A stretch of DNA of 64,000 nucleotides. It comes from Deltaproteobacteria bacterium (lineage in GTDB: Bacteria; UBA10199; GCA-002796325; JACPFF01). The stretch covers positions 295,578-359,577 of the forward strand of contig JACPFF010000006.1 of NCBI GenBank assembly GCA_016183065.1, in the 5' to 3' direction. How positions within the stretch are numbered: the stretch's first letter is position 1; each line of letters starts with the position of its first letter. Made by a program: the position numbers and the translations under genes. Of the stretch, positions 2,260 to 36,909 are shown piece after piece. The notes below the pieces were generated by a model, which saw nothing but the letters and a program-made list of their open reading frames with translations, was not told where the DNA came from and made no database searches.

Positions 2260-3267
2260 ATGGGCACATGGTTTCGCACATGGGTCGGACAACGGGTATT
2301 GATCGCGTGGTGTGGCTGCGGACTGATCGCCTGCGCGACTATTACAGGGGCTCACGTCGCCCCCTCCACCGGCAAAGCCGGTGGAGCCTCCCCCTCTCGC
2401 GCGCGGTGCGCGCTGGGGAACTTCCTCGTCCACCCGCTGCGCGGGTGCCCGGACTCGGTCGTCGCCACTGCCCCCTCCACCGGCAAAGCCGGGTCAAGGC
2501 CCAGCTCTGCTGGGCCGCGAAGCAGAGTCGAAGACTGTGCGGAGTGTGATGGAGCCTCCCCCTCTCGCGCGCGGTGCGCGCTGGGGAACGGCTCCCACGG
2601 GGTTTGCGTCCCCTCCAGCGGTGTAGCCTCCCCCTCAGCGCCGCGGAGCGGCTTGGCAAAGACACCGGTGGCGGATCGTGCGTCACCGACATTGTGGGAA
2701 GAGGCCGCGTCCTATGCCGACAGTGGCGAGAGCGATCGCCCGCGCAGGGAACGACTCGCCGCGATTCGCGCAGGACGACAGGTTGCCGAGCGCTGTGTGG
2801 CGCAACATCCCACGATGGCGGCATGCTATTACTATCGCGCGGTCTTGACCGGTCTCCACTATCAACTCACGGTGATCGGCTACCAAAAGGGGCTGGCGCG
2901 CATGCTCGCCGATTGTCAGCGGGTGGTGACGTTGGAGCCGGCGTTTGCCGAGGCCGGGGCGTACCGCATCATGGGGCAGATCTATACGCAGATTCCGGAG
3001 ACCGCCTTTCGCCCCGGGAGTCTCACGCGGGATCTCGACCGGGCCATCGGCTATCTGCAACAGGCGGTGGCATTGGCACCGGAGGCCTTTGAAAATCATC
3101 TGGCCTTGTGCGAGGCACAGGTTGCGGCCGCTGCCTGGCAGGATGGGGCCAGGAGTTGTGCCATGGCCGCGCGCCTCGTCCGCCACAAACGGGGAGCAGC
3201 GCAATACGCCGAGTGGCGTGAGGCACTGCGCGTCTTGAAGAAACGCCTTGCGAAGCGGAATCAGTGA
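2260..3267 (+). CDS. TPR-type lipoprotein (TRAP TatT-like) carrying an in-frame repeat element
   Basis: 335 residues. The N-terminus is a lipoprotein signal: a hydrophobic stretch ending L22-I23-A24-C25. Residues of about 27-135 are encoded entirely by a dispersed hairpin element (see the entry at 2339), giving a Ser/Ala/Pro/Gly/Arg-rich, low-complexity stretch. From about residue 137 a genuine helical-repeat domain begins (LWEEAASYA, CYYYRAVLTGL, AYRIMGQIYTQIP, AIGYLQQAVALAPEAFENHLALCEAQVAA). It resembles the TPR-like TRAP transporter TatT family, although no TRAP permease is nearby. If the insert is removed, lipobox and domain are separated by only a few residues. Whether the fused protein is made, or the gene is being lost, cannot be told from sequence. 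Confidence 0.7.
   Translation: MGTWFRTWVGQRVLIAWCGCGLIACATITGAHVAPSTGKAGGASPSRARCALGNFLVHPLRGCPDSVVATAPSTGKAGSRPSSAGPRSRVEDCAECDGASPSRARCALGNGSHGVCVPSSGVASPSAPRSGLAKTPVADRASPTLWEEAASYADSGESDRPRRERLAAIRAGRQVAERCVAQHPTMAACYYYRAVLTGLHYQLTVIGYQKGLARMLADCQRVVTLEPAFAEAGAYRIMGQIYTQIPETAFRPGSLTRDLDRAIGYLQQAVALAPEAFENHLALCEAQVAAAAWQDGARSCAMAARLVRHKRGAAQYAEWREALRVLKKRLAKRNQ
2339..2664 (+). repeat. Hairpin-rich dispersed element, copy 1 (inside lipoprotein gene)
   Basis: The left end is CTATTACAGGGGCTCACGTCG. Modules in order: stem CTCCACCGGC/loop AAA/GCCGGTGGAG (2364-2386); a CGCGCGC-type stem; CACCCGC/TGC/GCGGGTG (2431-2447); and CCCGGACTCGGTCGTCGCC. A second copy of the first stem follows and is interrupted by a foreign palindromic stretch around GGCCCAGCTCTGCTGGGCC. 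After another CGCGCGC stem comes a terminal GCCGCGGAGCGGC module. It is the longest copy in the window, about 326 bp, and has no stop codon in the lipoprotein frame. It resembles Rickettsia palindromic elements in position, not in sequence. Confidence 0.85.
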
Positions 3268-3298
3268 TGTGTAGGACCAACAAAAAGGAGAGTGCTCT

Positions 3299-3715
3299 AT
3301 GGCGAGTCTGAATAAGGCAATGATCCTCGGCAACCTTGGTGACAACCCGGAGGTTCGATCGACCCCCAATGGACAGACGGTGGCAACGCTCCGCATCGCC
3401 ACGAATGAGCGGTGGACCGATAAAGACGGACAGGCCCAGGAGCGAACCGAGTGGCACCGTGTCGTCGTCTGGGGGCGCCAGGCGGAGCAATGCGGGACCT
3501 ATCTCTCAAAAGGGCGGCAGGTTTTTGTCGAGGGGCGCATCCAGACGCGGGAATGGACCGACAAAGAAGGCCATCGTCGGTTTACCACTGAAGTGATTGC
3601 ACAGCGGATCCAGTTTCTCGGCAATCGCGCGGGGGGGAGTGGCAATCCCGCAGCAGATGGCGCGCCGGTACCAAGTCCCATGGGGCCGGCCGACGAGGAA
3701 GACGTCCCTTTTTGA
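3299..3715 (+). CDS. ssb: Single-stranded DNA-binding protein
   Basis: 138 residues. The N-terminal OB fold opens with LNKAMILGNLGDNPEVR and contains WHRVVVWGRQAEQC and GRQVFVEGRIQTREW. A short Gly/Pro linker then leads to the acidic tip DEEDVPF, the protein-interaction tail that recruits replication and repair enzymes. Length and tail are typical of a homotetrameric bacterial SSB. A strong ribosome-binding site (AAAAGGAG, 3283-3290) precedes the ATG. It is convergent with the DUF3187 gene, with 4 bp between the ends, and has no rpsF/rpsR neighbours, so it is a stand-alone ssb. Confidence 0.97.
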   Translation: MASLNKAMILGNLGDNPEVRSTPNGQTVATLRIATNERWTDKDGQAQERTEWHRVVVWGRQAEQCGTYLSKGRQVFVEGRIQTREWTDKEGHRRFTTEVIAQRIQFLGNRAGGSGNPAADGAPVPSPMGPADEEDVPF

Positions 3716-3719
3716 ACCG

Positions 3720-4742
3720 CTACAGTCCGCGCCAGGCGATGCCGGCGCGGAGGATGGCGGTAAAGTCGATCGACGGTCCATTTGGATGGAGATCTTCCGA
3801 AAAACCGACTTCCCAAAAGAAGTCTTCCTCCCCCAGAGCGGCCGGATGATATCCGGTCACACCGAAGACGAGATCGAGCGGTGGGTCCTCCCACTGGCGG
3901 TCGGCTATGCCTGACAATTGCGGCGTTCCCCCGTGGACCTGTGCCTGGAGGGCCACGCTGCGGGAGAGACGATACGCCCCACCCAGGGCATAGGCGAAGG
4001 TTTCGTTGTGCAGGAACGGTTCCAGGTTGGCCTGTCCGCCATTGATGAAATACCCGACATTGAGAAAGCCATACCAGCGGCGCCCCGTTTTTTCGAGCAA
4101 CAACCCCAGGCCATAGTCGAGGCGATTGTTCCCTGTCCCTTTCTTCCGACTCCCGGTCGGCAGTTGCACGGTGGCAAACCAGCCGATGCCCGGTCGCGTC
4201 GGGGTTTCCGGGGCGAGCGCGTGGCGCAGACGGAGCGAGAGATCGCCGAACACGGGGCCGTGTGCCGCCACGGCATATCGCGTGGCCCCCGTGGTCCGGT
4301 CGATCATGTGGACCGCGTAGGTGTTGTTGGCCACCGATTCGCGACCGCCATTGGGAAAGCCGAAGAGATGATGATACCACTGGAGGAATCCGTCGAGAAA
4401 TCCTCCCCACGTCGTTGTGATAGGCAATGTCCCTTCCAGCGTGAACTGATGGCCGAGACCATACGCGATCTCCATCTCAGTCTGCCACTGTTCCAGATCG
4501 ATCTGGACGTTCTCGGTCGGCGTCACGAACTGTTCAAAGATGTTCGAATACTGCGTCGTCATCGCCCATCGCCCATCCCCAGGCGCGTCCGCCACAACCG
4601 GCATCGGCTTCAGCTGCGCAAATTGCAGAGAGAACGGGTGTTGCGACTGGTAGGTGAGCGGTGCGGGAGGATGTCCCCATGCAAACGCCGCGATCGGGAG
4701 GAGGAGTGCACCGCACACGATGCCGTGCACGCTTACACGCAT
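3720..4742 (-). CDS. DUF3187 family outer-membrane-type protein
   Basis: 340 residues beginning with a signal peptide (MRVSVHGIVCGALLLPIAAFAWG). The body has alternating aromatic/polar beta-strand patterns typical of an outer-membrane barrel. It matches the DUF3187 layout: an N-terminal PLTYQSQHPFSLQF, an SNIFEQF stretch, EMEIAYGLG, then GGFLDGFLQWYHHLFGFP followed by NGGRES. Function is unknown for the family. The start at 4742 is chosen for the signal peptide; the upstream open frame is only the neighbouring repeat read through. Repeat copy 2 ends 16 bp before the start codon, so it must lie in the 5' leader or promoter. No good Shine-Dalgarno is visible. Confidence 0.82.
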   Translation of the reverse strand: MRVSVHGIVCGALLLPIAAFAWGHPPAPLTYQSQHPFSLQFAQLKPMPVVADAPGDGRWAMTTQYSNIFEQFVTPTENVQIDLEQWQTEMEIAYGLGHQFTLEGTLPITTTWGGFLDGFLQWYHHLFGFPNGGRESVANNTYAVHMIDRTTGATRYAVAAHGPVFGDLSLRLRHALAPETPTRPGIGWFATVQLPTGSRKKGTGNNRLDYGLGLLLEKTGRRWYGFLNVGYFINGGQANLEPFLHNETFAYALGGAYRLSRSVALQAQVHGGTPQLSGIADRQWEDPPLDLVFGVTGYHPAALGEEDFFWEVGFSEDLHPNGPSIDFTAILRAGIAWRGL

Positions 4743-4758
4743 GGGAGCCCGGTTTCGT

Positions 4759-4946
4759 CTATTACAGGGGCTCGCGTACCCTGCGGCTCCGCCTCCGGGT
4801 ACTTCCTCGTCCACCCGCTTCGCGGGTGCCCGGACTCGGTCGTCGCCACTGCCCCCCCAACGGGCAAAGCCCGTTGGGTCCCCCCCTCTCGCGCGCGGGT
4901 GCGCGCTGGGGGACTTCCTCGTCCACCCGCTGCGCGGGACACCCCT
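4759..4946 (+). repeat. Hairpin-rich dispersed element, copy 2
   Basis: The left end is CTATTACAGGGGCTCGCG. Modules: GTACCC...GGGTAC (4776-4802, containing TGCGGCTCCGCC), CACCCGC/TTC/GCGGGTG (4812-4828), CCCAACGGGC/AAA/GCCCGTTGGG (4856-4878), a CGCGCGC stem, and a second partial CACCCGC/TGC/GCGGG module. The element ends at the stop codon of manC on one side and 16 bp from the start of the DUF3187 gene on the other. It fills essentially the whole 205 bp between them and lies antisense to their transcription. Confidence 0.85.
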
Positions 4947-4947
4947 G

Positions 4948-5829: not shown

Positions 5830-5860
5830 GTGGGCGATCTACCCATGGCCATTGCCTTCG

Positions 5861-7517: not shown

Positions 7518-7624
7518 CGTACGCGTCTTTTTGAGGATTTCTGTGGTAATGTCAATGTCTTCCCTCCGTCATTCGCTCAGGACCGGCGGGACAGCGTCGG
7601 ACCACGATTTGGCGCCGATGATCA

Positions 7625-7829
7625 CTATTTACAGGGGCTCGCGTACCCTGCGGCTCCGCCTCCGGGTACTTCCTCGTCCACCCGCTTCGCGGGTCCCCGG
7701 ACTCGGTCGTCGCCACACCCCCCTCCACCGGCAAAGCCGGTGGAGCCTCCCCCTCACGCTCGCCGTGCTCGCTGGATCGCTTCCCACGGGCGACACGAGC
7801 TGCCGAGGACCACGCGTTTGCCCGTGGGA
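7625..7829 (+). repeat. Hairpin-rich dispersed element, copy 3
   Basis: The left end is CTATTTACAGGGGCTCGCG, with one extra T relative to other copies. Modules: GTACCC...GGGTAC, CACCCGC/TTC/GCGGGT, CCGGACTCGGTCGTCGCC, CTCCACCGGC/AAA/GCCGGTGGAG, and a CACGCTCGCCGTGCTCGCTGG variant of the CGCG stem. It ends with a longer inverted repeat whose arms are TCCCACGGGC and GCCCGTGGGA (about 7782-7829). The first half of that last module recurs in copy 11 (TTCCCACGGGCGAC, with CCGCCGAGG just after). It sits between the divergent purM and histidine kinase genes. Confidence 0.83.
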
Positions 7830-7836
7830 ATCTATT

Positions 7837-7865
7837 TTGACGTTCGAAAATTCAAAAAATATAAG
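7837..7865 (+). promoter_or_regulatory. Predicted sigma-70 promoter for the signalling island
   Basis: TTGACG (7837-7842), 17 bases, then TATAAG (7860-7865): five of six matches in both boxes with ideal spacing. It begins an AT-rich block (about 7831-7970) that contrasts sharply with the surrounding GC-rich DNA and contains further TATAAT-like strings (around 7897-7915). It points to the kinase at 7982, leaving a leader of about 110 bases. It starts about 8 bp from the end of repeat copy 3. Prediction from sequence only. Confidence 0.6.
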
Positions 7866-7981
7866 AGGTAACAAAGTACCAACAGAAAATACATAATGAT
7901 AATATAATTTTATACGCCATGGGTGAATATTCTTTTCATTCTGATCGAGATTGGGTATCATTTGACACTGCGGAGGACGTG

Positions 7982-9190: not shown

Positions 9191-9201
9191 GGGAGGGTGC
9201 A

Positions 9202-10587
9202 ATGCAGGAGACGATCCTCATAGTAGATGATGAAGTGGCCATTCGCCGGGCATTGGAACGGTTGCTGACCGATGACGGATATCGTCTCCTCACCGCGAGC
9301 AATGCCGACGAGGCATTGCAGCATGTGGCCCGCGAGCCGATCCAGTGCGCCCTCGTCGATCTTGTCCTGCCGGGACGGAGCGGCATCGAGCTGGTCCGCT
9401 TGCTGCGTGCGCAGATGCCAGACAGCGTGTCGATCGTCATGACCGGATTCGGGACCATCGCCAGTGCGGTCGATGCTATGAAGGCCGGGGCGTTTCACTA
9501 TCTCACGAAACCGTTTGAACTCGACGATATCCGGCAGCTCGTCCAGACGGCACTCGACCACCAGCACCTCCGTGTCGAAAATCGCGAGCTGAAGCGGGCC
9601 GTGCAGACCCGCTATCAATTTGCCAATATTATCGGGCATTCGGACGCCATGCACGGGGTCTTTCGCCTGATTGAAAAGGTCGCAGCCACCGACAGCACGG
9701 TCCTTCTCCTCGGGGAATCGGGGACCGGCAAGGAACTGGTGGCGCGCGCGGTCCATTGTCACAGTCACCGTGCCCAGCATCCCCTCGTCACGGTCAATTG
9801 TGCCGCCATTCCGGATGATCTCCTGGAGTCGGAGCTGTTCGGTCACGTGAAAGGGGCCTTTACGAGCGCGTCGTCGACGCAAGTCGGCAAATTTGTGGCC
9901 GCGCATGGTGGGACGATCTTTCTCGACGAAATCGCCGACATGAGTCCCAAGCTGCAGGTCAAACTGCTCCGCGTCATCCAGGAGCGACGCGTGGAACCGC
10001 TCGGCTCCACACAATCGCAGGAGATTGATGTGCGGATCATCGCCGCCACGAACCATGATCTGGAGTTGGCCATTCAGGAGCGGCGGTTCCGCGAGGACCT
10101 CTACTATCGCCTCAATGTGATTCCGGTCAAACTGCCGCCCCTGCGGGACCGTCGCGATGACATCGCGTTTTTGGCGCAACATTTTCTTGCGCGGTTCAAT
10201 GCGGACAATGGGCGGCAGGTGGAGGGGTTTGCTCCCGAGGTGATCGTCTATTTGACGCAGTACGAATGGCCCGGGAACGTGCGGGAGCTGGAGAACCTGA
10301 TCGAGCGACTCGTCGTGATCAAGGGGCATGGGATCATTGTGCCGGAAGATCTCCCCGCACATATGCTGGAAGGGAGTGTCTCGTTCCAGTCACCCGCCCT
10401 GCATATCCCCGATACCGGCATCTGCTTCAAGGCCGCGGTGACCGAGTTCGAAAATGCCCTGATTTTGCAGGCGCTCGCCAAGACGGGTGGCAACAAGAAC
10501 CGCGCGGCGGGTCTTCTGCAACTGAATCGGACGACGTTGGTGGAAAAAATCAAGAAGAAGCAGCTGGAACGACACGTGGCGGAATAA
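9202..10587 (+). CDS. Sigma-54-dependent response regulator 1 (NtrC family)
   Basis: 461 residues: receiver domain (LIVDDE acidic pair, phospho-acceptor D53, K in YLTKPFE), AAA+ sigma-54 activator (Walker A GESGTGKE, Walker B FLDEIADM, R-finger region REDLYYRLN) and a Fis-type helix-turn-helix (GGNKNRAAGLLQLNRTTLVEKI). It should activate sigma-54 RNA polymerase after phosphorylation by the kinase just upstream. Oddity: the sigma-54-contacting loop reads GAFTSA instead of GAFTGA. The glycine-to-serine change is uncommon; activity may be altered but is not excluded. The start at 9202 follows GGGAGG. Confidence 0.92.
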   Translation: MQETILIVDDEVAIRRALERLLTDDGYRLLTASNADEALQHVAREPIQCALVDLVLPGRSGIELVRLLRAQMPDSVSIVMTGFGTIASAVDAMKAGAFHYLTKPFELDDIRQLVQTALDHQHLRVENRELKRAVQTRYQFANIIGHSDAMHGVFRLIEKVAATDSTVLLLGESGTGKELVARAVHCHSHRAQHPLVTVNCAAIPDDLLESELFGHVKGAFTSASSTQVGKFVAAHGGTIFLDEIADMSPKLQVKLLRVIQERRVEPLGSTQSQEIDVRIIAATNHDLELAIQERRFREDLYYRLNVIPVKLPPLRDRRDDIAFLAQHFLARFNADNGRQVEGFAPEVIVYLTQYEWPGNVRELENLIERLVVIKGHGIIVPEDLPAHMLEGSVSFQSPALHIPDTGICFKAAVTEFENALILQALAKTGGNKNRAAGLLQLNRTTLVEKIKKKQLERHVAE

Positions 10588-10609
10588 TGAATCGTATGGG
10601 AGGGTGCTC

Positions 10610-12040
10610 ATGTACAAAAATACGAATCTCCTGATTGTGGACGACGATGACGCGCTGGTCAAAGTCTTTGAACGCGTGGCGCGTGATGAAGGCCTGACGG
10701 TTGCCGTGGCCCGGTCGGGGACGGAGGCCATCGAGGTCCTCAACCGCCAGGTGATCGAGGCGGCGGTCATTGATATCAACCTGCCTGGATACAGCGGCAT
10801 GCAGCTCCTCGAGTATATCAAGCAGAACCAGTTTCCCACGGAGGTGATTATCATCACCGGGGTGGGGACCGTGGAAACCGCAGTCCGCGCGATCAAGATT
10901 GGGGCGTATGATTATCTGACCAAACCCTTCGACGACGTGACCAAAGTCGTGATCATCATCAATAAGGCGCTGGAAAAATTCCGTCTCATGCAACGGATCC
11001 GGGTGCTGGAGCGCAAAGGGGAGGAGACCTTTGCGTATGAAGAGATCGTGGGGAAGAGTCACAAGATGCGCGACATTTTTTCGACGATCGATAGCGTGGC
11101 GGGGACAACCTCGACCGTGTTGCTCCTGGGGGAATCGGGGACGGGGAAGGAACTAGTGGCACGTGCGGTGCATCGGCGGTCCAAACGGGTGGACAAGCCG
11201 TTCGTCGTCATCAACTGTGCCGCGCTCTCGGAGAGTTTGCTCGAAAGCGAGTTGTTCGGGCACGTGCGGGGATCTTTTACCGGGGCGATCGCCGATAAAA
11301 TGGGGCTCTTTCAGGAGGCCGACGGCGGGACCATTTTTCTCGATGAAATTGCCGAAATTCCTTCCAGCACGCAGGTGAAATTGTTGCGGGTGTTGCAGGA
11401 GGGGGAAGTGCGCCCCGTCGGTGGGGCACAAAACCGGACGATCGACGTCCGCCTCATTGCCGCGACCAATCAGGATCTGGCAGAGGCCGTGACTGAGGGG
11501 CGCTTCCGGGAGGATCTTTACTACCGGCTCAATGTGATTCAACTCTCCCTGCCGCCGCTGCGGGACCGCCAGGAAGATATCCCCCTCTTGGCGTATCACT
11601 TCCTCCAAAAATATGCGAAGAAGCTGGAAAAAGATGTGACCAAGATCGCCATCGAGACCCTGCAGATCCTGCAAAACTATCAATGGGTCGGGAATGTGCG
11701 GGAGCTCGAGAACGTGATGGAACGTGCCGTCGTGCTCGTGCAAGGCGATACCATCACCGTCAGGGATCTGCCGCCTCGTGTGTTGGGCGAGGGATTTTAT
11801 CTCCCGGAGGAACCGACCTCCTCGGATCTGTCGCGCTTTACCTATCAGGAGGCCAAAGAACGGTCGCTCTGGGCCTTTAATCGGGCCTATCTCTCGAATC
11901 TCCTCCGACAGACGCAGGGAAATCTCTCCAATGCCGCACAGCGGGCGGGGATGGATCGGAGCAATTTCAAGAAAATCGTGAAAAAATTCAACATCGACTT
12001 GGGCGAATTTCGCAAAAAATCGAACGTGAGTGAGGTCTAA
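10610..12040 (+). CDS. Sigma-54-dependent response regulator 2 (NtrC family)
   Basis: 476 residues with the same three-domain plan. The receiver has an acidic run D11-D14, D55 in VIDINLPG, and K in DYLTKPFDD. The AAA+ domain has GESGTGKE, the sigma-54 loop GSFTGA (a tolerated variant), FLDEIAEI and REDLYYRLN. The C-terminal HTH is GNLSNAAQRAGMDRSNFKKI, similar to the longer Fis-like ends of ZraR/AtoC-type proteins. ATG 10610 follows GGGAGG; GTG 10604 is an alternative. It overlaps the next regulator by one base (TAATG), so the three activators are translationally linked. Confidence 0.92.
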   Translation: MYKNTNLLIVDDDDALVKVFERVARDEGLTVAVARSGTEAIEVLNRQVIEAAVIDINLPGYSGMQLLEYIKQNQFPTEVIIITGVGTVETAVRAIKIGAYDYLTKPFDDVTKVVIIINKALEKFRLMQRIRVLERKGEETFAYEEIVGKSHKMRDIFSTIDSVAGTTSTVLLLGESGTGKELVARAVHRRSKRVDKPFVVINCAALSESLLESELFGHVRGSFTGAIADKMGLFQEADGGTIFLDEIAEIPSSTQVKLLRVLQEGEVRPVGGAQNRTIDVRLIAATNQDLAEAVTEGRFREDLYYRLNVIQLSLPPLRDRQEDIPLLAYHFLQKYAKKLEKDVTKIAIETLQILQNYQWVGNVRELENVMERAVVLVQGDTITVRDLPPRVLGEGFYLPEEPTSSDLSRFTYQEAKERSLWAFNRAYLSNLLRQTQGNLSNAAQRAGMDRSNFKKIVKKFNIDLGEFRKKSNVSEV

Positions 12041-13419
12041 TGGCATCGCGACTCCTCTGTATTCAAGACGAAGGTGCGGACACACTGGCCGTTCATGCCC
12101 TGTTGGGACAGGGGGGATGGACGGTAAAGACAGCCGGGCCACACGATTACGAGACCCTGCTCCGGTTGGATGTCCCGGACTGTGTGGTGATTCTTGTCCA
12201 ACAGCGTGAGGTGAATGTCCTGCAGATGCTGGAGGCCATCCACGACATCGATGAACATCTCCCGGTGATCATCGTCCTGGTGCAGCCGGGGGTCCTGCAG
12301 GACGTCGTGCAATTCATGAAGGCCGGTGCGCACGATGTCGTCGTCTGGCCGACCGAAACGCCGCATTTCTTGCGTATGGTCGAACATGCGATCCATCTCT
12401 ATCACCTGACCAAGCGGGTGTTCTTGTTGGAAAATCAGGTGGGGGGGTGGCGCGGACGTTTTGACGAGCTGATTGGCCAGGGGGCCAAGATGCAGGAAGT
12501 GTTTCAGATGATTCACACGGTCGCGTCCAGTAATGCCACCGTGTTGATTACGGGAGAATCGGGGACGGGGAAGGAATTGGTGGCACGGGCCATCCACCGG
12601 CGGAGTCAGCGCGGGAAGAACCCGTTCATGGATCTCAACTGCGGGGCCATTCCGCGCGAGCTCCTCGAGAATGAGCTGTTCGGTCATGAGCGGGGGGCCT
12701 TTACGGGGGCCGAGCGGCGCTATTTGGGGTGTTGCGAACGTGCCGACGGCGGAACCCTTTTTCTGGACGAAATCTGCGAGATGGAACCGACCCTGCAGGT
12801 GAAAATTTTGCGATTGTTGCAGGAGCGGACCTATACGCGGGTCGGCGGGACGGAGCGCCTCTCGGCCGATCTCCGTTTCATTGCGGCAACCAACCGCAAC
12901 ATCCACGAAGAGGTTGAAAAGGGACGATTCCGGGAGGATCTCTACTACCGGCTCAATGTGGTGCCAATTCATTTGCCGGCGCTGCGCGATCGACCGGAAG
13001 ATATCCCGATCCTGGCGCGGTGGTTTCTGGAGCGCTTTGCCCAGAAACTGGAAAAGCCCTTCATCGAGTTCGCGCCCGATGTCTTGGAGCTTCTGGTCAG
13101 CTATCAATGGCCGGGCAACGTCCGCGAACTCGAAAACGTCATTGAGCGGATGGTCGTACTCAACAATGACACGCGCGTCCGGATGAAGCATCTGCCGCCG
13201 CATATTCGCAAGGCGCAACGGCGCGGGGATCGTCTCCGTCATCCGGCACAGGTCGCGGTCGACGCCCAGTCGATCTTGCCGCTCGATCTCGTCGAAAAAT
13301 ATGCTATCGAGTCGGCGCTGGAGAAATGTGTGGGGAATGTGAGCGAGGCCGCAAAACGGCTCAAGATCGGTCAGGCCACGCTCTACCGGAAGATCCGGCA
13401 ATACGGTCTACGGAATTAG
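12040..13419 (+). CDS. Sigma-54 activator 3 with degenerate (pseudo-) receiver domain
   Basis: 459 residues. The receiver fold is retained, but the active site is not: the acidic pair is QDE (9-11), the phospho-acceptor position is Leu/Val (VVILVQQREVN, about 52-53) and the conserved Lys is Trp in DVVVWPTE. Phosphorylation is therefore unlikely. The AAA+ domain is intact (GESGTGKE, GAFTGA, FLDEICEM, REDLYYRLN), as is the Fis-like HTH (GNVSEAAKRLKIGQATLYRKI). Regulation by ligand, partner protein or hetero-oligomers with the two regulators upstream is possible (inference). The stop codon touches repeat copy 4. Confidence 0.9.
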   Translation: MASRLLCIQDEGADTLAVHALLGQGGWTVKTAGPHDYETLLRLDVPDCVVILVQQREVNVLQMLEAIHDIDEHLPVIIVLVQPGVLQDVVQFMKAGAHDVVVWPTETPHFLRMVEHAIHLYHLTKRVFLLENQVGGWRGRFDELIGQGAKMQEVFQMIHTVASSNATVLITGESGTGKELVARAIHRRSQRGKNPFMDLNCGAIPRELLENELFGHERGAFTGAERRYLGCCERADGGTLFLDEICEMEPTLQVKILRLLQERTYTRVGGTERLSADLRFIAATNRNIHEEVEKGRFREDLYYRLNVVPIHLPALRDRPEDIPILARWFLERFAQKLEKPFIEFAPDVLELLVSYQWPGNVRELENVIERMVVLNNDTRVRMKHLPPHIRKAQRRGDRLRHPAQVAVDAQSILPLDLVEKYAIESALEKCVGNVSEAAKRLKIGQATLYRKIRQYGLRN

Positions 13420-13665
13420 TGGGGCCCCACGACCCAGCGCGCCCCGCGCGCGAGAGGGGGGGACCCAACGGGCTGTGCCCGTTGGGGGGGCGACGACCGA
13501 GTCCGGGGACCCAGCGAAGCTGGGTGGACGAGGAAGTCCCCGGAGGCGGAGCCGCAGGGGACGTGAGCCCCTGTGTGTGCAGTTCCCCAGCGCGCCCCGC
13601 GCGCGAGAGGGGGGGACCCAACGGGCTGTGCCCGTTGGGGGGGCGACGTGAGCCCCTCCAATAGT
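13420..13665 (-). repeat. Hairpin-rich dispersed element, copy 4 (tandem pair)
   Basis: Two copies in the same orientation. The first (13420-13573) begins with the palindrome GTGGGGCCCCAC directly after the TAG of the upstream gene. It carries a CGCG stem, CCCAACGGGC/TGT/GCCCGTTGGG (13464-13486), ACCCAGC/GAA/GCTGGGT (13509-13525) and GTCCCC...GGGGAC (13536-13562), and ends GTGAGCCCCTG. The second, shorter one (about 13581-13665) repeats the CGCG and CCCAACGGGC stems and ends in the canonical GTGAGCCCCTCCAATAG. It separates the sigma-54 activators from the partner-switching genes. Confidence 0.85.
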
Positions 13666-13703
13666 CGGGGATCTTCCGATGGCGTATCGCAACGGAGGGG
13701 ATC

Positions 13704-14042
13704 ATGGATATCCAGGTGGTCAATCGCGGCGTCGTCTCGGTCATTCGTTGCCAGGGGAGTCTTGATGCCCAGACAGTCGGCCAATTCAAGAAATCCGTGA
13801 CCCCAATCATGGCAGGGGATGCGGCACGGTTGATCCTCGACGGGACGGCCCTAACCTTTATCGACAGCATGGGGCTGGGGGTCCTCATTTCCATGATGCG
13901 GCGCCTGCGCGAACGCAAAGGAGAACTCAAGATGGCGGCATTGACGCCGGACGTGCAATCCATTTTTGAGATCACCCGGTTGAACCGACTCTTCGACATC
14001 TGTCCCACCGTGGATGTTGCAGCACAACGTTTCGCCTCGTGA
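13704..14042 (+). CDS. Anti-sigma factor antagonist (STAS domain, SpoIIAA/RsbV-like)
   Basis: 112 residues, a single STAS domain with the phosphorylatable serine in LTFIDSMGLGVLISM (S55). In partner switching the unphosphorylated form binds the RsbW-type kinase and frees its client; the kinase phosphorylates the serine and the PP2C phosphatase removes the phosphate. The kinase and phosphatase genes follow at 14209 and 14606. GGAGGGG precedes the ATG. The gene is enclosed by element copies 4 and 5 in the same orientation, with copy 5 starting at the base after its stop codon. No sigma-factor gene is adjacent, so the client is unknown. Confidence 0.9.
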   Translation: MDIQVVNRGVVSVIRCQGSLDAQTVGQFKKSVTPIMAGDAARLILDGTALTFIDSMGLGVLISMMRRLRERKGELKMAALTPDVQSIFEITRLNRLFDICPTVDVAAQRFAS

Positions 14043-14199
14043 GTGGGGCCCCACGACCCAGCGCGCGAGAGGGGGGGACCCAACGGGCTGTGCCCGTTGG
14101 GGGGGCAGTGGCGACGACCGAGTCCGGGGACCCAGCGAAGCTGGGTGGACGAGGAAGTCCCCGGAGGCGGAGCCGCAGGGGACGTGAGCCCCTCCAATA
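14043..14199 (-). repeat. Hairpin-rich dispersed element, copy 5
   Basis: Same orientation as copy 4. It starts at the first base after the STAS stop codon with GTGGGGCCCCACGACCCAGCG, then CCCAACGGGC/TGT/GCCCGTTGGG, CCGAGTCCGGGG, ACCCAGC/GAA/GCTGGGT and GTCCCC...GGGGAC, ending GTGAGCCCCTCCAATA. The CGCGCGC module is shortened relative to copy 4. It ends 10 bp before the ATG of the RsbW-like gene, so that gene's ribosome-binding region (AAAGGAACCG) borders the element end. Confidence 0.85.
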
Positions 14200-14208
14200 A
14201 AGGAACCG

Positions 14209-18175: not shown

Positions 18176-18346
18176 CGGGGGCAGTGGCGACGACCGAGTC
18201 CTGGCCCCCGCCAGCGCGCACCGCGCGCGAGAGGGGGGGCAGTGGCGACGACCGAGTCCTGGCCCCCGCCAGCGCGCACCGCGCGCGAGAGGGGGGGACC
18301 CAACGGGCTTTGCCCGTTGGGGGGGCGACGTGAGCCCCTGTAATAG
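18176..18346 (-). repeat. Hairpin-rich dispersed element, copy 6, with 58-bp internal duplication
   Basis: The canonical end GTGAGCCCCTGTAATAG is at 18330-18346. Inward lies CCCAACGGGC/TTT/GCCCGTTGGG, then a CGCGCGC stem followed by GCCCCC and CGGTCGTCGCC-type modules. A unit beginning GCAGTGGCGACGACCGAGTC occurs twice (from 18181 and 18239, period 58 bp), identical by eye. The duplicated unit contains one CGCGCGC hairpin plus the CGACGACCGAGTC module. It lies in the leader between the yqaA-like gene and the hypothetical gene, in the transcribed sense of both. Confidence 0.85.
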
Positions 18347-22117: not shown

Positions 22118-22193
22118 CTATTGGAGGGCTCACGTCGTCCCCCAACGGGCAAAGCCCGTTGGGTCCCCCCCCTCGCGCGCGCGGTGCGCGCTG
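22118..22193 (+). repeat. Hairpin-rich dispersed element, copy 7 (short form)
   Basis: Left end CTATTGGAGGGCTCACGTCG, one G shorter than the consensus, then CCCAACGGGC/AAA/GCCCGTTGGG and a CGCGCGCGGTGCGCGCTGG stem, where it stops. It has only two hairpin modules. The right end runs straight into the first of two 22-bp direct repeats (22194). It lies 43 bp downstream of hemA. Confidence 0.83.
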
Positions 22194-22347
22194 GAAACTC
22201 CCGGGTACGTCATACGCTGCGCAACACCTTGAGACAACTGGGGATTTCAGGTGTGCATGGGGACTCCCAGCGGGGGACACGGACGCGCCGTGGCTGACCA
22301 CCGACGAAACTCACGAAACTCTCGAGAAACTCCCGGGTACGGCATAC
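22194..22347. repeat. 22-bp direct repeat pair (132 bp apart) beside copy 7
   Basis: GAAACTCCCGGGTACGTCAT (plus AC) at 22194-22215 recurs at 22326-22347 with one mismatch (G for T). The left copy begins exactly where repeat copy 7 ends; the right copy begins the only gene-like segment of this stretch. The 110 bp between contains CACGAAACTCTCGAGAAACT-like short internal repeats and no open frame of note. A local duplication, or a duplication caused by insertion of the element, would explain it. Confidence 0.6.
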
Positions 22348-22574
22348 ACTATGTAGACGATTTTGCCTTTGTGGACAAACAGATTCCCGGGAGCGTGTGG
22401 CGCATCGATCAGGTGATTGCGCATCTGAAACAGGCGGGCGTCAAGCACGTGATCGTGGCCTCGGGCGACTCGCTGGAGGCCCTTCAGGAGGACCCGGCCT
22501 GCCAAGGGGCGGATGGCTTTGCGCCCGAGAAAATTCCGGACAGTCTGCACCCGTGGGGTCGCAAGGACTCGTAA
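22326..22574 (+). pseudogene. Probable gene fragment, faintly phosphatase-like
   Basis: An open frame of about 83 codons that reads like real protein (HYVDDFAFVDKQIPGSVWRI, then DQVIAHLKQAGVKHVIVA) and ends at TAA 22572-22574. The spacing of aromatic/DD, PGS and LKQAGVKHVI loosely recalls the N-terminal half of dual-specificity phosphatases, but the catalytic HCxxxxxR segment is absent. The upstream codons are non-homologous DNA from the repeat region. Most likely a decayed remnant; the family guess is weak. Most of 22075-22784 otherwise holds only repeat copy 7 and this debris. Confidence 0.3.
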
Positions 22575-26877: not shown

Positions 26878-26878
26878 C

Positions 26879-27787
26879 ATGCGAAACTTTGCACAACGAA
26901 CCGTGGTCGTTTTTCTGATCGTGGGCCTCCTCGGGTGTTCCGGGAGTACTGCGAGTGATACGACAGAGACGACCGAGACCACCACGGCCACGTTGAATGA
27001 TTTGACCACATTCGTCCAATGGGCAGGCCATACGTGGGACGATCTGGTGGCGCAACTGAGCGTGTCAAAGGCCTTCAGTGTTGATTTTCCGATTCCCTGC
27101 GCCGGCGGGGGCACCATCACGTCGGATGGAACCACGATCTCGCTCAACGACTGCACGGAGACCTATGGGGAGACGACCTATGTCACGCGCGGCACCTATA
27201 CGGTGACAACGTCCGGTTCGCTCACCACGCACGCCTGGGAACAGAGTATTATCGTGGACGGCAGTACCACCTTTTCGTGCACCGGTTCCGTCAGCTTTAA
27301 CACGAGCGATGATCTTGTGGCGTTTGACTACTCCGGCACATTCACGAGCGGGACCTTCCGACTGACCGGGACGGTGGCCGACAATAGCGACGGGACGAGC
27401 GATTGCATCTTCTCCGTCCTCCTCGACGGCGAGGCCTGGCAGGACGGCCTGTTCGACGATACCGACTTGGACGCCCTGACGGAGACGCAGGTCGACCAGG
27501 CCTGCACGGACGACGATGACCCGGCGTGTGCGACCCTCGAGTGTGCGAACGATTTCCAGTGCCAGCTCTTTGCCGATGACAATACGAGCGATGAATACGA
27601 GACCGGGAACATCGAGTGCGCCTCCGGATGTTGCGCCCTGAAGAGCAGTGTCAGCGAATGTCCAGACTCGGCGCCCTGCAGCACCGATTTCCAGTGCCAG
27701 CTCTTTGCCGATGATAGTACCACGGACGTCTTTGAAACCGACAATGTCACCTGTGCCGATGACGGCTGTTGTGCGGTCGTGGAGTAA
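26879..27787 (+). CDS. Lipoprotein with duplicated Cys-rich C-terminal motif
   Basis: 302 residues. Lipobox L17-L18-G19-C20 after MRNFAQRTVVVFLIVGLLGC, then a Thr/Glu-rich linker (TTETTETTTATL). A beta-rich middle domain (about 60-205) follows. The C-terminal 90 residues hold two near-copies of the motif DFQCQLFADDNTSDEYETGN / DFQCQLFADDSTTDVFETDN, each ending in a CC pair (GCCAL, GCCAV). Six to eight disulfide-capable cysteines suggest an exported, stable surface domain. It starts one base after the stop of the 72-residue peptide gene, so it is the third gene of that operon. No named family. Confidence 0.68.
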   Translation: MRNFAQRTVVVFLIVGLLGCSGSTASDTTETTETTTATLNDLTTFVQWAGHTWDDLVAQLSVSKAFSVDFPIPCAGGGTITSDGTTISLNDCTETYGETTYVTRGTYTVTTSGSLTTHAWEQSIIVDGSTTFSCTGSVSFNTSDDLVAFDYSGTFTSGTFRLTGTVADNSDGTSDCIFSVLLDGEAWQDGLFDDTDLDALTETQVDQACTDDDDPACATLECANDFQCQLFADDNTSDEYETGNIECASGCCALKSSVSECPDSAPCSTDFQCQLFADDSTTDVFETDNVTCADDGCCAVVE

Positions 27788-27839
27788 GCGACGTGTCTCC
27801 GTGATCGGTTTTTACGAAATGCGGGCGACTACTGTCTGA

Positions 27840-30276: not shown

Positions 30277-30277
30277 C

Positions 30278-31315: not shown

Positions 31316-31327
31316 TCGCTGTTCCGA

Positions 31328-31407
31328 GACCAAGCCGCACTGCGGCGTTGAAGGGGAGGCTCCAGCGGCTTTGCCGCTGGAGGGGGCGACGTGAGCCCCT
31401 CCAATAG
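31328..31407 (-). repeat. Hairpin-rich dispersed element, copy 8 (short form)
   Basis: Canonical end GTGAGCCCCTCCAATAG at 31391-31407. Inward: CTCCAGCGGC/TTT/GCCGCTGGAG (31360-31382), then GAAGGGGAGG and a GCCGC/ACT/GCGGC terminal hairpin next to GACCAA. It starts 13 bp after the kinase stop codon. The stem arm CCAGCGGC differs from other copies at several positions, each compensated on the other arm. Confidence 0.85.
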
Positions 31408-31485
31408 TGGAATTGCGGCTAGACACGGTGTGGCATGGGTGTTAGAGACGGCCCGTGGTGGGTGTGTATGAGAAGGAGCGGACCC

Positions 31486-31725
31486 ATGACAGAAGAACAG
31501 ATTGATCATCTTCGACATGAGTTATCGACCTGTGCCCACCATATTCGCGGGGAATTGGCCACACTCCTCGCCCTGGCCCAGCAACTGGGACAACCGACCA
31601 AAAATGTGACGCGCCTCCGTGCCATTGCCGAAGAAAAAGTCCACGGGTTGGCCGAGATTGCGAACCGGCTCTCGCATCTGGCGGCCCGTGTGGATCGCGA
31701 CATCACTCACCGTGCAGCATCGTAA
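31486..31725 (+). CDS. Hypothetical 79-residue protein bracketed by elements
   Basis: 79 residues, all helical by composition (EEQIDHLRHELSTCAHHIRG, ELATLLALAQQLGQ, LRAIAEEKVHGLAEIANRLS). ATG 31486 is preceded by AAGGAG; the upstream GTG/ATG at 31435/31468 add a Trp/Arg-rich stretch that looks non-native. The helix with HHIRGELATLLALAQQLGQ vaguely recalls a histidine-kinase dimerisation helix (HIRGEL...), but no ATPase follows. Unknown function. It sits alone between element copies 8 and 9, which have the same orientation. Confidence 0.5.
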   Translation: MTEEQIDHLRHELSTCAHHIRGELATLLALAQQLGQPTKNVTRLRAIAEEKVHGLAEIANRLSHLAARVDRDITHRAAS

Positions 31726-31749
31726 TCGTCCATCGACTGTTGCTCTCTG

Positions 31750-31917
31750 TGGGGCCCCACGGGCTCACGCCTGTGGCACCCTGGGGGGAGGCTTCGCCTG
31801 AGCACGACACCCCCCGGACTAACGTCCGGGGCCCCACGACCCAGCCGCACCGCGGCGTTGAAGGGGAGGCTCCAGCGGCTTTGCCGCTGGAGGGGGCGAC
31901 GTAAGCCCCTCCAATAG
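31750..31917 (-). repeat. Hairpin-rich dispersed element, copy 9, with extra outer module
   Basis: Canonical end GTAAGCCCCTCCAATAG at 31901-31917, then CTCCAGCGGC/TTT/GCCGCTGGAG, a GCCGC/ACC/GCGGC-type hairpin with CGTTGAAGG, and CCCCACGACCCAGC. Further out is a block unique to this copy: GTGGGGCCCCAC (31749-31760), CACGGGCTCACGCCTGTGG, AGGCTTCGCCT and CCCCGGACTAACGTCCGGGG-like palindromes. It follows the 79-residue ORF by about 25 bp and precedes the symporter gene by about 70 bp. Confidence 0.82.
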
Positions 31918-31986
31918 TGGTCTCAATGCCGTCCGGGTATGGACGAGTCGTGACCGCGACCCAGCAAGGTGTGGAGAGGAGGGACT

Positions 31987-33369: not shown

Positions 33370-34532
33370 TCCAATGGTTCTGGAACCACCTCCCGCGGCC
33401 CATCCTCGGTCTTGCACCGATGGATGGGGTGACGAATGCGCCGTTTCGCGCGATTACCGCGCGGTATGGACGTCCGGATGTCATCTTTACCGAGTTTGTC
33501 CCCATCGATGGACTCATGCATCGTGCCACCCGTCTCCTGACCGATCTGGTCTATGCCGAGTCCGAGCGTCCCGTCGTGGCGCAGATCTACGGTAACGATC
33601 CCGGTGGATGTTATGCGATCGCGCATTTGGTCTGCGAGCTGGGATTCGACGGGCTCGACATTAATATGGGCTGCCCGGCACGCAATGTCGCCAGCCGCGG
33701 GGCCGGGGCGGGATTGATACGGACGCCACAGATTGCCCAGGCCATGATCCGTGCCGCGCAACGGGGGATCACCGACTGGAGTCACGGGCAGACGCTGTTG
33801 CAGGCGGGTGTGCCGACGGCGATTGTCGAGGCTGCGGCCACCATTTTTCGACAGCGGCCGGAGAGACGATGCGATCGACGGGAACCCATTCCCGTTTCCG
33901 TGAAGACGCGCCTCGGATACGACACCGCCGTGGTGCGCGACTGGATCGCGACGCTGCTCGAGGCCGCACCAGTCGTGATCAGTCTCCATGGGCGGACGCT
34001 GACCCAGATGTATCGCGGTGAGGCGGATTGGGACGCCATTGCCATGGCGGCGGAGATCGTCCATCAGACGTCCACACTGGTGCTCGGCAATGGCGACCTC
34101 GGTGAGGCGAGTATCATGGAGCAGCGTCTGCGCGAGACGAACGTCGATGGCCTCTTAGTGGGGCGCGCGGCGATCGGGAATCCGTGGATCTTTCGCATGG
34201 CCCCATGGCTCCGTCGCCGGATGGCGGGTGATGCCACGGCCGCGGCAGTCCCTCCCCCGGACGCCCGATCGCCCGATGAGGCCCTTGCGGTTTTTGTGGA
34301 ACATGCCGAGGCCATCGAGGCCGCGGTCCATCCAAAGGCCTTCACACAACTCTTTCGTTTTGTGAAACCCTATACGCAAGGGCTCCCCAACGCCAACGTG
34401 CTGCGTACAGAGTGCTACCAGATCCGATCCGCTGCTGAGCTGAAGCGACTCGTGCGGCGATGCCAGCGGCATCATGACGCGGCGTGCACGGTGTCGAGCC
34501 GTGTTGTCTGCCAGGGGCGTCTGGAAAAATAG
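33366..34532 (+). CDS. dus: tRNA-dihydrouridine synthase family protein
   Basis: 388 residues. FMN enzyme reducing uridines in tRNA D loops. Evidence: LGLAPMDGVTNAPFR at the N-terminus, VVAQIYGNDPGG, DINMGCPARNVASRGAGAG with the catalytic-type cysteine, VSVKTRLGYD, ISLHGRTLTQMYRGEADW, and GLLVGRAAIGNPWIF. It carries an insert of about 30 residues between the DINMGCP and VKTRLG blocks (SHGQTLLQAGVPTAIVEAAA onward), compared with DusA/B/C. Coupled to the symporter by ATGA. The last 61 bp overlap the oppositely oriented SNF gene. Subfamily (A, B or C) not decided. Confidence 0.9.
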   Translation: MIQWFWNHLPRPILGLAPMDGVTNAPFRAITARYGRPDVIFTEFVPIDGLMHRATRLLTDLVYAESERPVVAQIYGNDPGGCYAIAHLVCELGFDGLDINMGCPARNVASRGAGAGLIRTPQIAQAMIRAAQRGITDWSHGQTLLQAGVPTAIVEAAATIFRQRPERRCDRREPIPVSVKTRLGYDTAVVRDWIATLLEAAPVVISLHGRTLTQMYRGEADWDAIAMAAEIVHQTSTLVLGNGDLGEASIMEQRLRETNVDGLLVGRAAIGNPWIFRMAPWLRRRMAGDATAAAVPPPDARSPDEALAVFVEHAEAIEAAVHPKAFTQLFRFVKPYTQGLPNANVLRTECYQIRSAAELKRLVRRCQRHHDAACTVSSRVVCQGRLEK

Positions 34533-35971
34533 AACGCCACGAGCAGTGTTGCGAGGAGCCAGCCACCCCCAATAGCGAGAATGGCCGGGATGGGATACCC
34601 GCCGTACGGCGTCTGGATCTCTTCATATACCCCGACGCCGAGGAGAATGGTCATCATGGTCGGTGTGAAGATCGTCAGGCCGAACGCCACGGGCCAACCG
34701 ACCGGATGACTCGAGTGTGCATTGACATAGGCAATAAAGGTCTCTTTCCCCAGGACGCGCGTGACGAGCAGACATTGGAGCAGGGCTACGGCAATGACGC
34801 CGAACTGGTTGATGAAGTGATCGACGAGATCGAGCCAGTAGAGGCCACTGCCGGTTGTAAAGAGAATGCCGAGCAGAAAACCGACGAGGCACGTCCCGTC
34901 GACGATCCGTTTGCGCGACCAGGAGAACTTGTCTTGCGCGGAGGCGATAAAGGCTTCGCCCATTGCAATGCTCGACGTAATCCCGGCAATGAGGAGTGCA
35001 ATGAAGAAGAGAAAGGCAAAAAAGTGTTGCCCACCGGGTAATTGGTTGATCGCCTCAGGATAGGCAACAAAACTGAGGCCGATGCTTTGACTGACGACCT
35101 CACTCACCGGTTTCCCCGCACGCAAGGCCATGAAGCCGAGGAGAGAAAAGACGGCAAAGGCGGCAATCACTTCCACCGCGCTGTTGGCAATGCCGACGAT
35201 GATGGCGTTGGCCTTGAGGTTGGTCTTCTGGGGGAGATAGCTGCCATACGCGATCATCATCCCGTAGCCGAGTGAGAGGCTGAAAAAAATGTGTCCAAAG
35301 GCATTGCGCCAGATGGTCGGATCCCAGAGGCGCGAGAAATCGGGGGTGAGATAGGCCTTGATCCCCAGGCTTGCACCCGGCAGGGTGAGGCTCCAACCGA
35401 CGAGGAAGAGGATCAGCACGAAGAGGAGCGGCATGCAGATCCGGCCAGCCAGTTCAATGCCGCGCGTAATGCCGCGGCGCAGGATGTACCAGTTGATGGC
35501 CCAGATGCACGCCAGCCCGATGAAAATGCGCGGGTTGATGGAGCCAAAGGAAAAGGGACCATCGGTTTTTTGGAGAAATTGCTCAAAGAAGAAGGTGTTC
35601 GGGTCGCTCCCCCACGCCAGGTTGGCCCCAAAGGCGAGGTAGTTGAGGCACCATGAAAGGACCACATTGTAGTAACAGGCGATGGCAAACGCCGTGAAGA
35701 TGACGGCCCACCAGCCAAGCCACTCCCACCCGGGGTGGACGCGTGCAAAGGCAAGTGGTGCAGACCCCTGCTCCCGGTGGCCGAGTCCGTGTTCCATGAT
35801 CATCAGTGGGAGGCCGACCAGGAGGAGGGCGATGAAGTAGGGGATGAAAAATGTCCCACCACCACTCGTGTAGGCGACATACGGAAATCGCCAGATATTC
35901 CCGAGGCCCACTGCGCACCCAATGGCGGCACACAAAAACCCGGTCCGTGTTTTCCACTGTTCGCGTCCCAC
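34472..35971 (-). CDS. Sodium-dependent transporter, SNF (LeuT-type) family
   Basis: 499 residues, about 12 helices. The N-terminal signature GCAVGLGNIWRFPYVAY is the sodium/substrate site of neurotransmitter:sodium symporters. Later blocks: GLPLMIMEHGLGHREQGS, FSLSLGYGMMIAYGSYLP, and LLIAGITSSIAMGEAF with the TM8 sodium ligands. Probably imports an amino acid or related compound. Tail-to-tail overlap with dus of 61 bp. Upstream (35972-36210, about 240 bp, divergent from maf) holds element copy 10 and no clear promoter. Confidence 0.92.
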   Translation of the reverse strand: MGREQWKTRTGFLCAAIGCAVGLGNIWRFPYVAYTSGGGTFFIPYFIALLLVGLPLMIMEHGLGHREQGSAPLAFARVHPGWEWLGWWAVIFTAFAIACYYNVVLSWCLNYLAFGANLAWGSDPNTFFFEQFLQKTDGPFSFGSINPRIFIGLACIWAINWYILRRGITRGIELAGRICMPLLFVLILFLVGWSLTLPGASLGIKAYLTPDFSRLWDPTIWRNAFGHIFFSLSLGYGMMIAYGSYLPQKTNLKANAIIVGIANSAVEVIAAFAVFSLLGFMALRAGKPVSEVVSQSIGLSFVAYPEAINQLPGGQHFFAFLFFIALLIAGITSSIAMGEAFIASAQDKFSWSRKRIVDGTCLVGFLLGILFTTGSGLYWLDLVDHFINQFGVIAVALLQCLLVTRVLGKETFIAYVNAHSSHPVGWPVAFGLTIFTPTMMTILLGVGVYEEIQTPYGGYPIPAILAIGGGWLLATLLVAFYFSRRPWQTTRLDTVHAAS

Positions 35972-36060
35972 CGTGCGCTCTCTTGTTAGCCCTCTCTGGT
36001 TGCATGAATCACAGTCTTACGATAAGTGTACCTTTTCGCACAGCTTTTCGCGTGCGTCAA

Positions 36061-36100
36061 CTATTGGAGGGGGAGGCAAAGCCCCCTCCAGCGGCACAGT
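36061..36100 (+). repeat. Hairpin-rich dispersed element, copy 10 (minimal form)
   Basis: CTATTGGAGGGGGAGGCAAA... The canonical left end leads directly into a single hairpin GGAGGGGG (36066-36073) / AGGCAAAG / CCCCCTCC (36082-36089), followed by AGCGGCACAGTG. It seems to have lost the CTCACGTCG segment, fusing the end with the right part of a first-stem module. It lies between the divergent SNF and maf genes and is the smallest copy. Confidence 0.65.
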
Positions 36101-36210
36101 GACCGACGCATTCCCGGTGTGCCTGGCTCCACCGGAGCCAGTGTGCCCGGAAACGCCCCCATTGAGCGCTGCGGTGTGGCGTTGGCCATGGGCGGCGAAG
36201 GGGATCGGCT

Positions 36211-36840
36211 ATGCAATTGATCTTGGCATCGGGATCGCCACGACGGGCAATGCTCCTCGCACAATTGGGGCTTCCATTTCAGGTTGTTGTGCCGACCATT
36301 GAGGAGATTGTTCCCGACGGGATGATGCCGAGGGAGGCGGCAGCGCATTTGGCCATGGCCAAGGCGCACGCGGTGGCGAGTGGCCATGAGGATGCACTGG
36401 TGATCGGGAGTGATACGATGGTGGTCCTGCAGGAAGAGATCCTTGGAAAGCCAGCCTCGGATCAGGAGGCCGCGGTCATGCTGACCCGGTTGCAGGGGCG
36501 CACGCACACCGTGATGACCGCCGTGGTCGTCTGTCACGCGGTATCGGCCCGGTCGTGGTCCCATGTTGACTGTGCGGAGGTCACCATGAAGCGACTCACG
36601 ACCACGGAGATCGCGGCTTATGTGGCGACGGGCGAGTCGCGCGACAAGGCCGGCGCGTATGCCGCGCAGGGCGAGGGCGCGCGTCTGATTGCGGCCGTGT
36701 CGGGGGATTTTTTTGCAGTCGTTGGACTTCCTGTGCGCGCCACCATCTCCTTGCTGGAGCAGGCCGGGTTGTCGGTGACCGCGAATGTCGACGCCATCTA
36801 TTCCAGGGGCTCACGTCGCCCCCTCCATCAGCGAAGCTGA
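36211..36840 (+). CDS. maf: Maf/YceF nucleotide pyrophosphatase with element-encoded C-terminus
   Basis: 209 residues. Maf proteins hydrolyse non-canonical or modified nucleoside triphosphates. Motifs: LILASGSPRRAMLL, SDTMVVLQEEILGKP, ML.RLQGRTHTVMTAVVV-type (LTRLQGRTHTVMTAV), and ESRDKAGAYAAQGEGA. The native domain ends near TISLLEQAGLSVTANVDA. The last 14 residues, IYSRGSRRPLHQRS, and the TGA at 36838-36840 are read from repeat copy 11, the stop lying inside its hairpin. The enzyme core seems intact. Flanked by element copies 10 and 11 in the same orientation. Confidence 0.9.
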   Translation: MQLILASGSPRRAMLLAQLGLPFQVVVPTIEEIVPDGMMPREAAAHLAMAKAHAVASGHEDALVIGSDTMVVLQEEILGKPASDQEAAVMLTRLQGRTHTVMTAVVVCHAVSARSWSHVDCAEVTMKRLTTTEIAAYVATGESRDKAGAYAAQGEGARLIAAVSGDFFAVVGLPVRATISLLEQAGLSVTANVDAIYSRGSRRPLHQRS

Positions 36841-36909
36841 TGGAGCCTCCCCCTCTCGCGCGCTGTGCGCGCTGGGGAGATTCCCACGGGCGACGGGAGC
36901 CGCCGAGGG
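36798..36909 (+). repeat. Hairpin-rich dispersed element, copy 11 (overlaps end of maf)
   Basis: Left end CTATTCCAGGGGCTCACGTC, then CTCCATCAGC/GAA/GCTGATGGAG (36823-36845), a CGCGCGCTGTGCGCGCTGG stem and the outer module TTCCCACGGGCGACGGGAGC with CCGCCGAGG (to about 36909), which matches the outer module of copy 3. The first stem differs from every other copy at several base pairs while remaining perfectly paired. It provides the stop codon of maf. Confidence 0.83.

Follow-up and report, generated by a model that had tools for sequence, protein, structure and literature searches.

The window, i.e. the whole stretch of 64,000 nucleotides analysed here, belongs to a MAG of 1.97 Mb in 30 contigs, 88.8% complete, which is referred to below as the host genome. 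Its spacers contain a series of hairpin-rich copies of one element, about 47 to 323 bp long, which share a 21-bp end, CTATTRSAGGGGCTCRCGTCG. A search allowing up to 3 mismatches found 8 matches to this end in the window, versus 0 in 100 shuffles; they are located at 2339, 4759 and 36798 on the plus strand and at 13664, 14200, 18346, 31407 and 31917 on the minus strand. Three divergent copies, starting at about 7625, 22118 and 36061, were recognised by reading the sequences, so that eleven loci are present in all. Two of them touch coding sequence: copy 11 provides the final residues and the stop codon of a Maf-family gene (36211-36840), and copy 1 overlaps an unassigned ORF (2203-3267). An earlier note, made from the letters of this DNA, had described eleven loci with a common end, lying in spacers and twice within coding sequence, and number, lengths and positions all agree with that description.

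The modules are arranged in the order left end, hairpin 1 (GGGGC-loop-GCCCC), hairpin 2 (CTCCACCGGC-AAA-GCCGGTGGAG and variants), CCTCCCCCTC and hairpin 3, the latter with variable stems. Copy 1 (2339..2661, plus strand) shows in its first part the CTATT end, hairpin 1, hairpin 2 (CTCCACCGGC/GCCGGTGGAG) and a GCGCGC hairpin 3, followed in its second part by the spacer module TCCTCGTCC...GGACTCGGTCGTCGCC and a second hairpin block. In copy 2 (4759..4938, plus) the CTATT end is joined to an alternative hairpin, GTACCCTGCGGCTCCGCCTCCGGGTAC, and then to hairpins 2 and 3; copy 3 (7625..7800, plus) has the same architecture and a 3' tail, GGGCGACACGAGC, in which the left end recurs in inverted orientation. 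Copy 4 (13419..13664, minus) is a tandem pair of complete blocks and, like copy 5 (14043..14200, minus), terminates at GTGGGGCCCCAC. Copy 6 (18177..18346, minus) consists of the core and, after it, a tandem duplication of 58 bp, copy 7 (22118..22200, plus) of the CTATT end minus 1 bp and hairpins 2 and 3, and copy 8 (31329..31407, minus) is the shortest full core, with hairpins 1 to 3. Copy 9 (31749..31917, minus) adds the hairpin module CCCCGGACGTTAGTCCGGGG to the core and terminates, again, at GTGGGGCCCCAC. Copy 10 (36061..36108, plus) is reduced to a CTATTGGAGGGGGAGGC hairpin and a AGCGGCACAGTGACCGACG module, while in copy 11 (36798..36909, plus) the Maf reading frame continues into the CTATT end, which encodes its final residues and stop codon, and a 3' tail, CGGGCGACGGGAGC, is present.

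A repeat finder independently recovered the modules, as direct and inverted repeat families at the same places. The sequence GTGGGGCCCCAC, at which three copies terminate, occurs 3 times in the window versus 0.27 expected. Additional blocks, e.g. TCCTCGTCCACCCGCTTCGCGGGTGCCCGGACTCGGTCGTCGCC, are found in this host, and tandem repetition and exchange of blocks account for the length range of the copies.

Some other features of the window were recorded. Copies 4 and 5, in the same orientation, bracket a STAS-domain gene (13704-14042) in a cassette-like arrangement (13664-14043), and a single small gene in 31407-31749 is bracketed in the same manner by copies 8 and 9. Three tandem paralogous genes at 9712-12710, with segments 66-70% identical, are probably sigma-54-type response regulators, judging from a translated motif; two adjacent paralogous genes at 50640-52731, with segments 72-80% identical, probably encode solute-binding proteins. 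A 73-bp direct repeat (74% identical) lies within one reading frame at 27550-27757.

The anatomy of the element was established on copies from many genomes. It measures about 80 bp or more and comprises three hairpins and about 20 nearly invariant bases; the core used in the searches, CTATTNNAGGGGCTCRCGTCGCCCCC plus two hairpins, covers about 80 bp. The stretch from AGGGG to CCCCC is almost invariant over 42 copies, an invariance partly due to sampling, as the loci were found by that pattern. The CTATT side, a fixed terminus, shows a sharp conserved boundary at positions -9 to -1, beyond which there is no conservation. The opposite end differs between copies and is built from hairpin modules. 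The terminus reads CTATTNNA in the host genome and YTATTATA elsewhere. Some copies close with GGGCGACGNGAGC, a 3' tail forming an inverted repeat with the left end; most have no such tail. Of 76 long ORFs that run into the CTATT side in non-host genomes, 27 have their stop codon among its last 10 bases, in many cases a TAG formed by the element; these are mechanical ORFs in GC-rich DNA, and the figures are indicative only.

Changes in hairpin 2 always affect both sides of the stem and never one alone, and no G-U intermediate was found among the stems counted. Hairpin 3 occurs with some 24 distinct perfect stems, besides a single non-palindromic form that is frequent. We infer that the lack of G-U intermediates fits a DNA hairpin, maintained by selection or by templated repair, more than an RNA.

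In the host genome the end has 123 matches with up to 2 mismatches, versus none for a reversed control pattern, so that the modules are not restricted to the genes of the window. As the earlier note had proposed, a covariance model of the core was run over the genome and its relatives: it gave hits in 24 of the 46 genomes of the class, probably GTDB UBA10199, with 104 copies in the host genome (all of the candidates that were scored), 73 in another genome and 1 to 22 in each of twenty-two more. Copy number differs inside one genus, 7 versus 1. Among the matches listed, the exact core with hairpin 2 is found in Nitrospirae/Nitrospiria, Nitrospira sp. and Troglogloeales MAGs, in Syntrophus, Syntrophorhabdus, Syntrophobacterales and Bdellovibrionales MAGs, and in MAGs titled 'Deltaproteobacteria'; the exact 19-mer was present in just 2 of 118 evenly drawn Nitrospirota genomes. 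No match to the element was found in phage, viral contig and plasmid records. This patchy presence, combined with a near-identical core across phyla, points to horizontal spread between lineages. In an Rfam scan of the window only a tRNA reached the gathering score, with no match to the element, and in a literature search largely confined to journals outside subscription no paper describing this hairpin family was found.

Evidence of mobility was obtained from Nitrospirae MAGs whose orthologous loci share roughly 80-88% identity. Several of these sites carry the element in one MAG and an uninterrupted spacer in another. At one of them (L054), the element's TCATAG takes the place of the final codon and stop of an ORF, and the corresponding sites L068 and L193 have CCCTGA; the unannotated ORF is presumably, by resemblance, a nucleoside diphosphate kinase gene. 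At another site, independent copies lie in opposite orientation in two genomes and a third genome has none. Within the host genome, the reading frame of an IS200-like TnpA is broken by a composite copy (L321, G000:C8:65.8-66.2 kb). Neither a clear nor a short target duplication was seen at comparable occupied/empty pairs. The occupied and empty sites and the interrupted ORF show insertion or loss, rather than a mechanism. Copies adjoin gene ends, and their spread within the genome and between lineages is supported by copy number, occupied and empty sites and patchy distribution. The notion of a non-autonomous palindromic mobile family, put forward earlier, gains from each of these observations, although the interpretation given at that time overlooked both how widely the element is distributed and the duplicated, recoded gene ends described below.

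Flanks of 254 loci were compared with each other. A direct repeat scoring at least 20 was found in 16 of them, versus none of 1264 mismatched flank pairs; at random positions 0.4% reach such a score, mostly because of neighbouring tRNAs or coding repeats. Some of the 16 are element copies in tandem, repeats within coding sequence or adjacent tRNAs; the remainder, together with one locus found later, was retained as gene-end loci. These number eleven of about 250 non-host loci, and in each of them the repeated piece is a gene end that extends up to the CTATT terminus, to within some 11 bases of the core. The coding cases, named by sequence recognition with no family search, involve rplL (L062), mraZ (L076), a STAS gene before rsmH (L007), a glpA-like gene (L008), an unassigned C-terminus QDHVMELKDLLG (L136) and the C-terminus EAAKIILNPS (L412). 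The others concern tRNA-Arg (L020), tRNA-Met (L194), tRNA-Thr (L082, L224) and tRNA-Gly (L145). In 10 of the 11 loci the hairpin-3 side carries the intact gene and the CTATT side the fragment, and the inserts measure only about 80-150 bp. Because about 4% of non-host loci and none of 73 loci in the host genome carry a gene-end duplication, this may be a side process.

Several candidate duplications were discarded. The short ones at L117, L175, L185 and L352 (Syntrophus, Syntrophorhabdus) are tandem copies of the element itself, and at L133 the pair consists of two different tRNA genes. An apparent homology of the few codons preceding the duplicated stretch, and a target apparently copied into hairpin 3 (L352), were likewise rejected, as both can be the element's own end.

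Over the five coding cases analysed, the codon differences comprise 30 synonymous and 4 non-synonymous ones, although one copy is severed from its gene. If changes are treated as random in one copy, the probability of so few non-synonymous changes is 0.00025 or less in 4 of the 5, while L008 differs weakly from random decay (P 0.025). The mraZ duplicate starts with 7 identical codons, after which 9 of 12 are changed; the corresponding figures are 7 and 7 of 8 for L007, and 14 and 4 of 6 for rplL, so that in these three cases the changes are restricted to one end. The stop codon is also changed between duplicate ends. At L145 the 5' half of tRNA-Gly is identical and the upstream regions differ; the tRNA duplicates, of 33-50 bp, show few changes. 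At L136 a long identical stretch is absent, and rplL at L062 shows three ends in succession. Exact flanking repeats of 17 bp and 25 bp are found at L213 and L174. Both sides of the mraZ (mraZ-STAS-rsmH), STAS and rplL (with the downstream spacer) loci are syntenic with relatives, which makes a random join unlikely.

Differences that in most coding cases are almost purely synonymous, stop codon included, suggest that the ends diverged as functional ends in separate lineages, and the most likely reading of these alignments is that two gene ends evolved apart and were then brought together. Comparison with the nearest relatives did not separate the foreign from the native end. The genomes concerned are all MAGs, or appear to be, and strain mixing in assembly is for this reason a residual possibility. 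As a separate observation, a different hairpin, GAGNATCTGGCTTTGCCAGTNCGAGCGAA, follows mraZ in G034 (L325, 2007-2035; also L103) and is followed in turn by a recoded mraZ-end fragment (DELGL stop); other hairpin families, too, may have gene-end fossils beside them.

The fixed CTATT junction, the duplication and its recoding can be accommodated in the following scheme, of which the donor, the order of steps and the enzyme are inferred. A new copy would arrive on DNA of a diverged relative, with the element beside a homologous gene end. The CTATT terminus would be joined into the recipient gene, by an enzyme cutting or joining at CTATT and presumably encoded elsewhere, and the other side would be closed by homologous recombination in a conserved, identical stretch of 20-60 bp. 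The recipient gene would then end with the donor's synonymous 3' end, followed by the element, with the old end left beyond it on the CTATT side. Taken as a whole, a family of non-autonomous mobile hairpin elements of about 80-330 bp, with reduced copies, spreading horizontally and repaired by anchoring in homologous gene ends, is a reading in which we place middling confidence. The stricter version, in which a protein-less bacterial element spreads between species with the synonymous neighbouring gene end, or is repaired together with it, by a nuclease acting in trans, is put forward tentatively.

Other explanations were weighed against this scheme. Membership of the REP/BIME or CGTC-REP superfamilies, with movement by RAYT or by a broad set of transposases, might be considered given the position near stop codons, the composite structure and more than 100 copies. 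An unpaired CGTC is also found inside the hairpin 1 loop, and CGTC REPs too have no dedicated transposase according to PMC3733652, where Rickettsia palindromic elements are placed among them. The resemblance extends to short, abundant palindromes that are intergenic beside stop codons and occasionally intragenic. REPs as defined there are single hairpins of 20-40 bp with a terminal tag, whereas the element has at least about 80 bp, three hairpins and no such tag. GTAG is absent from the hairpin foot. The CGTC does not form an unpaired terminus to a stem of 8-9 bp that begins with A-T pairs, with a loop of 4-5 and a CCA tail, and both stems and tail differ from those of a CGTC REP. The recoded gene-end duplications are a feature of the element for which the accessible text of PMC3733652 has no counterpart among REPs. 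Movement by RAYT/TnpA-REP, a gene for which the earlier note had advised looking, was not supported either, since Y1_Tnp genes show no association with the element: the exact core adjoins none of 12 Y1 loci inspected, and the only Y1 locus with a copy is interrupted by it. Y1_Tnp genes are equally common in genomes without the element and missing in some that have it; Y1 was not found in the element-bearing G034, G036, G038 and G016 and is frequent in the element-free G003, some of the compared genomes being incomplete. The single RAYT-like gene of the host (212 aa; L320, G000:C2:1000-3000) is flanked by its own inverted pair of GGGTACGTCATAC, which indicates a second, RAYT-linked repeat family in that genome; two GGGTACGTCATAC-like repeats lie beside copy 7, at 22194-22218 and 22326-22350. 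On present evidence the CTATT-acting enzyme does not belong to the Y1/RAYT family, and we regard the REP assignment as improbable. The association screen, which covered Y1_Tnp only, yielded no mobilising enzyme. With REP-like behaviour, absent tags and Y1 genes that do not track it, the element is classed as a variant among non-autonomous palindromic repeats: it appears to work like REPs and MITEs, with no membership of a named family shown. The earlier statement that it is unlike known named repeats thus holds for Rfam and, as far as testable, for the GTAG and CGTC definitions of PMC3733652.

The main rival is a MITE-like insertion by a transposase producing a long, variable target-site duplication (17-60 bp), with recoding by later recombination with a diverged strain. 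In its favour, the duplicate lies on both sides and ends exactly at the CTATT terminus, and the exact repeats at L213 and L174 and the little-changed tRNA duplicates fit as well. On the other hand, synonymous recoding close to the gene end is seen in 4 of the 5 coding duplicates analysed, all five are inexact, identity over any long stretch is missing at L136, and occupied/empty pairs show no clear duplication. The fixed short target-site duplication of MITEs was not found, the 17-60 bp repeats being confined to a few loci, and an unsystematic look at the fetched loci revealed no autonomous transposon with the same ends. This rival is accordingly held possible, on the less likely side. Integrative elements that attach at gene 3' ends, as e14 and phage 21 do at icd, could leave scars with recoded gene ends and tRNA targets, typical of integrase sites, and could even explain the three successive rplL ends, the hairpin being a remnant after loss of the interior. 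That one hairpin lies beside many different genes, that neither an integrase gene nor an att core common to the loci was seen, and that most copies have no duplication make such an origin very improbable. Equally little credit can be given to a non-mobile, functional structured RNA or terminator under selection: stable hairpins with covariation and a location after genes would suit it, but the two-sided stem changes without G-U intermediates and the variety of hairpin-3 stems fit DNA hairpins, copies occur in both orientations, within reading frames and in the IS200-like ORF, and species of one genus differ in copy number as reported above.

The hairpin element was compared with further systems. 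Rickettsia palindromic elements are palindromic and able to insert in frame into genes; they differ from the present element in sequence and structure, and its in-frame cases appear rare. For mitochondrial double-hairpin elements, gene-end replacement is, to our knowledge, not known. These and other repetitive hairpin elements of mitochondria share with it the nature of short, mobile, multi-hairpin DNA with no enzyme of its own, and differ in sequence and host, as far as the available text of e.g. PMC2800124 goes. At gene ends the pattern resembles that of the fungal mitochondrial mORFs, which replace gene C-termini (PMC3630166, after Allomyces atp6). In mORFs the gene gains a foreign, mostly synonymous end, and the native one comes to lie past the insert; in the bacterial element, two synonymous ends from separate lineages are seen in 4 of the 5 coding cases, with the foreign end not distinguished. 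mORFs encode a homing endonuclease, whereas the bacterial element contains no such ORF in its inserts of about 80-150 bp.

How palindromic repeats with no transposase, e.g. the CGTC REPs, spread is a stated open question in Di Nocera et al. 2013 (PMC3733652). On this question the element provides evidence at the level of single loci: empty sites, a fixed terminus, and fossils recording recombination with a diverged relative, which make the insertion step testable. With its near-identical core in several phyla, the element might serve as a marker for gene flow between uncultured bacteria. If the proposed scheme is true, the target gene would survive with a foreign C-terminus or tRNA half, its own end remaining as a fossil, and the process would parallel, in bacteria, the gene-end replacement of mitochondria.
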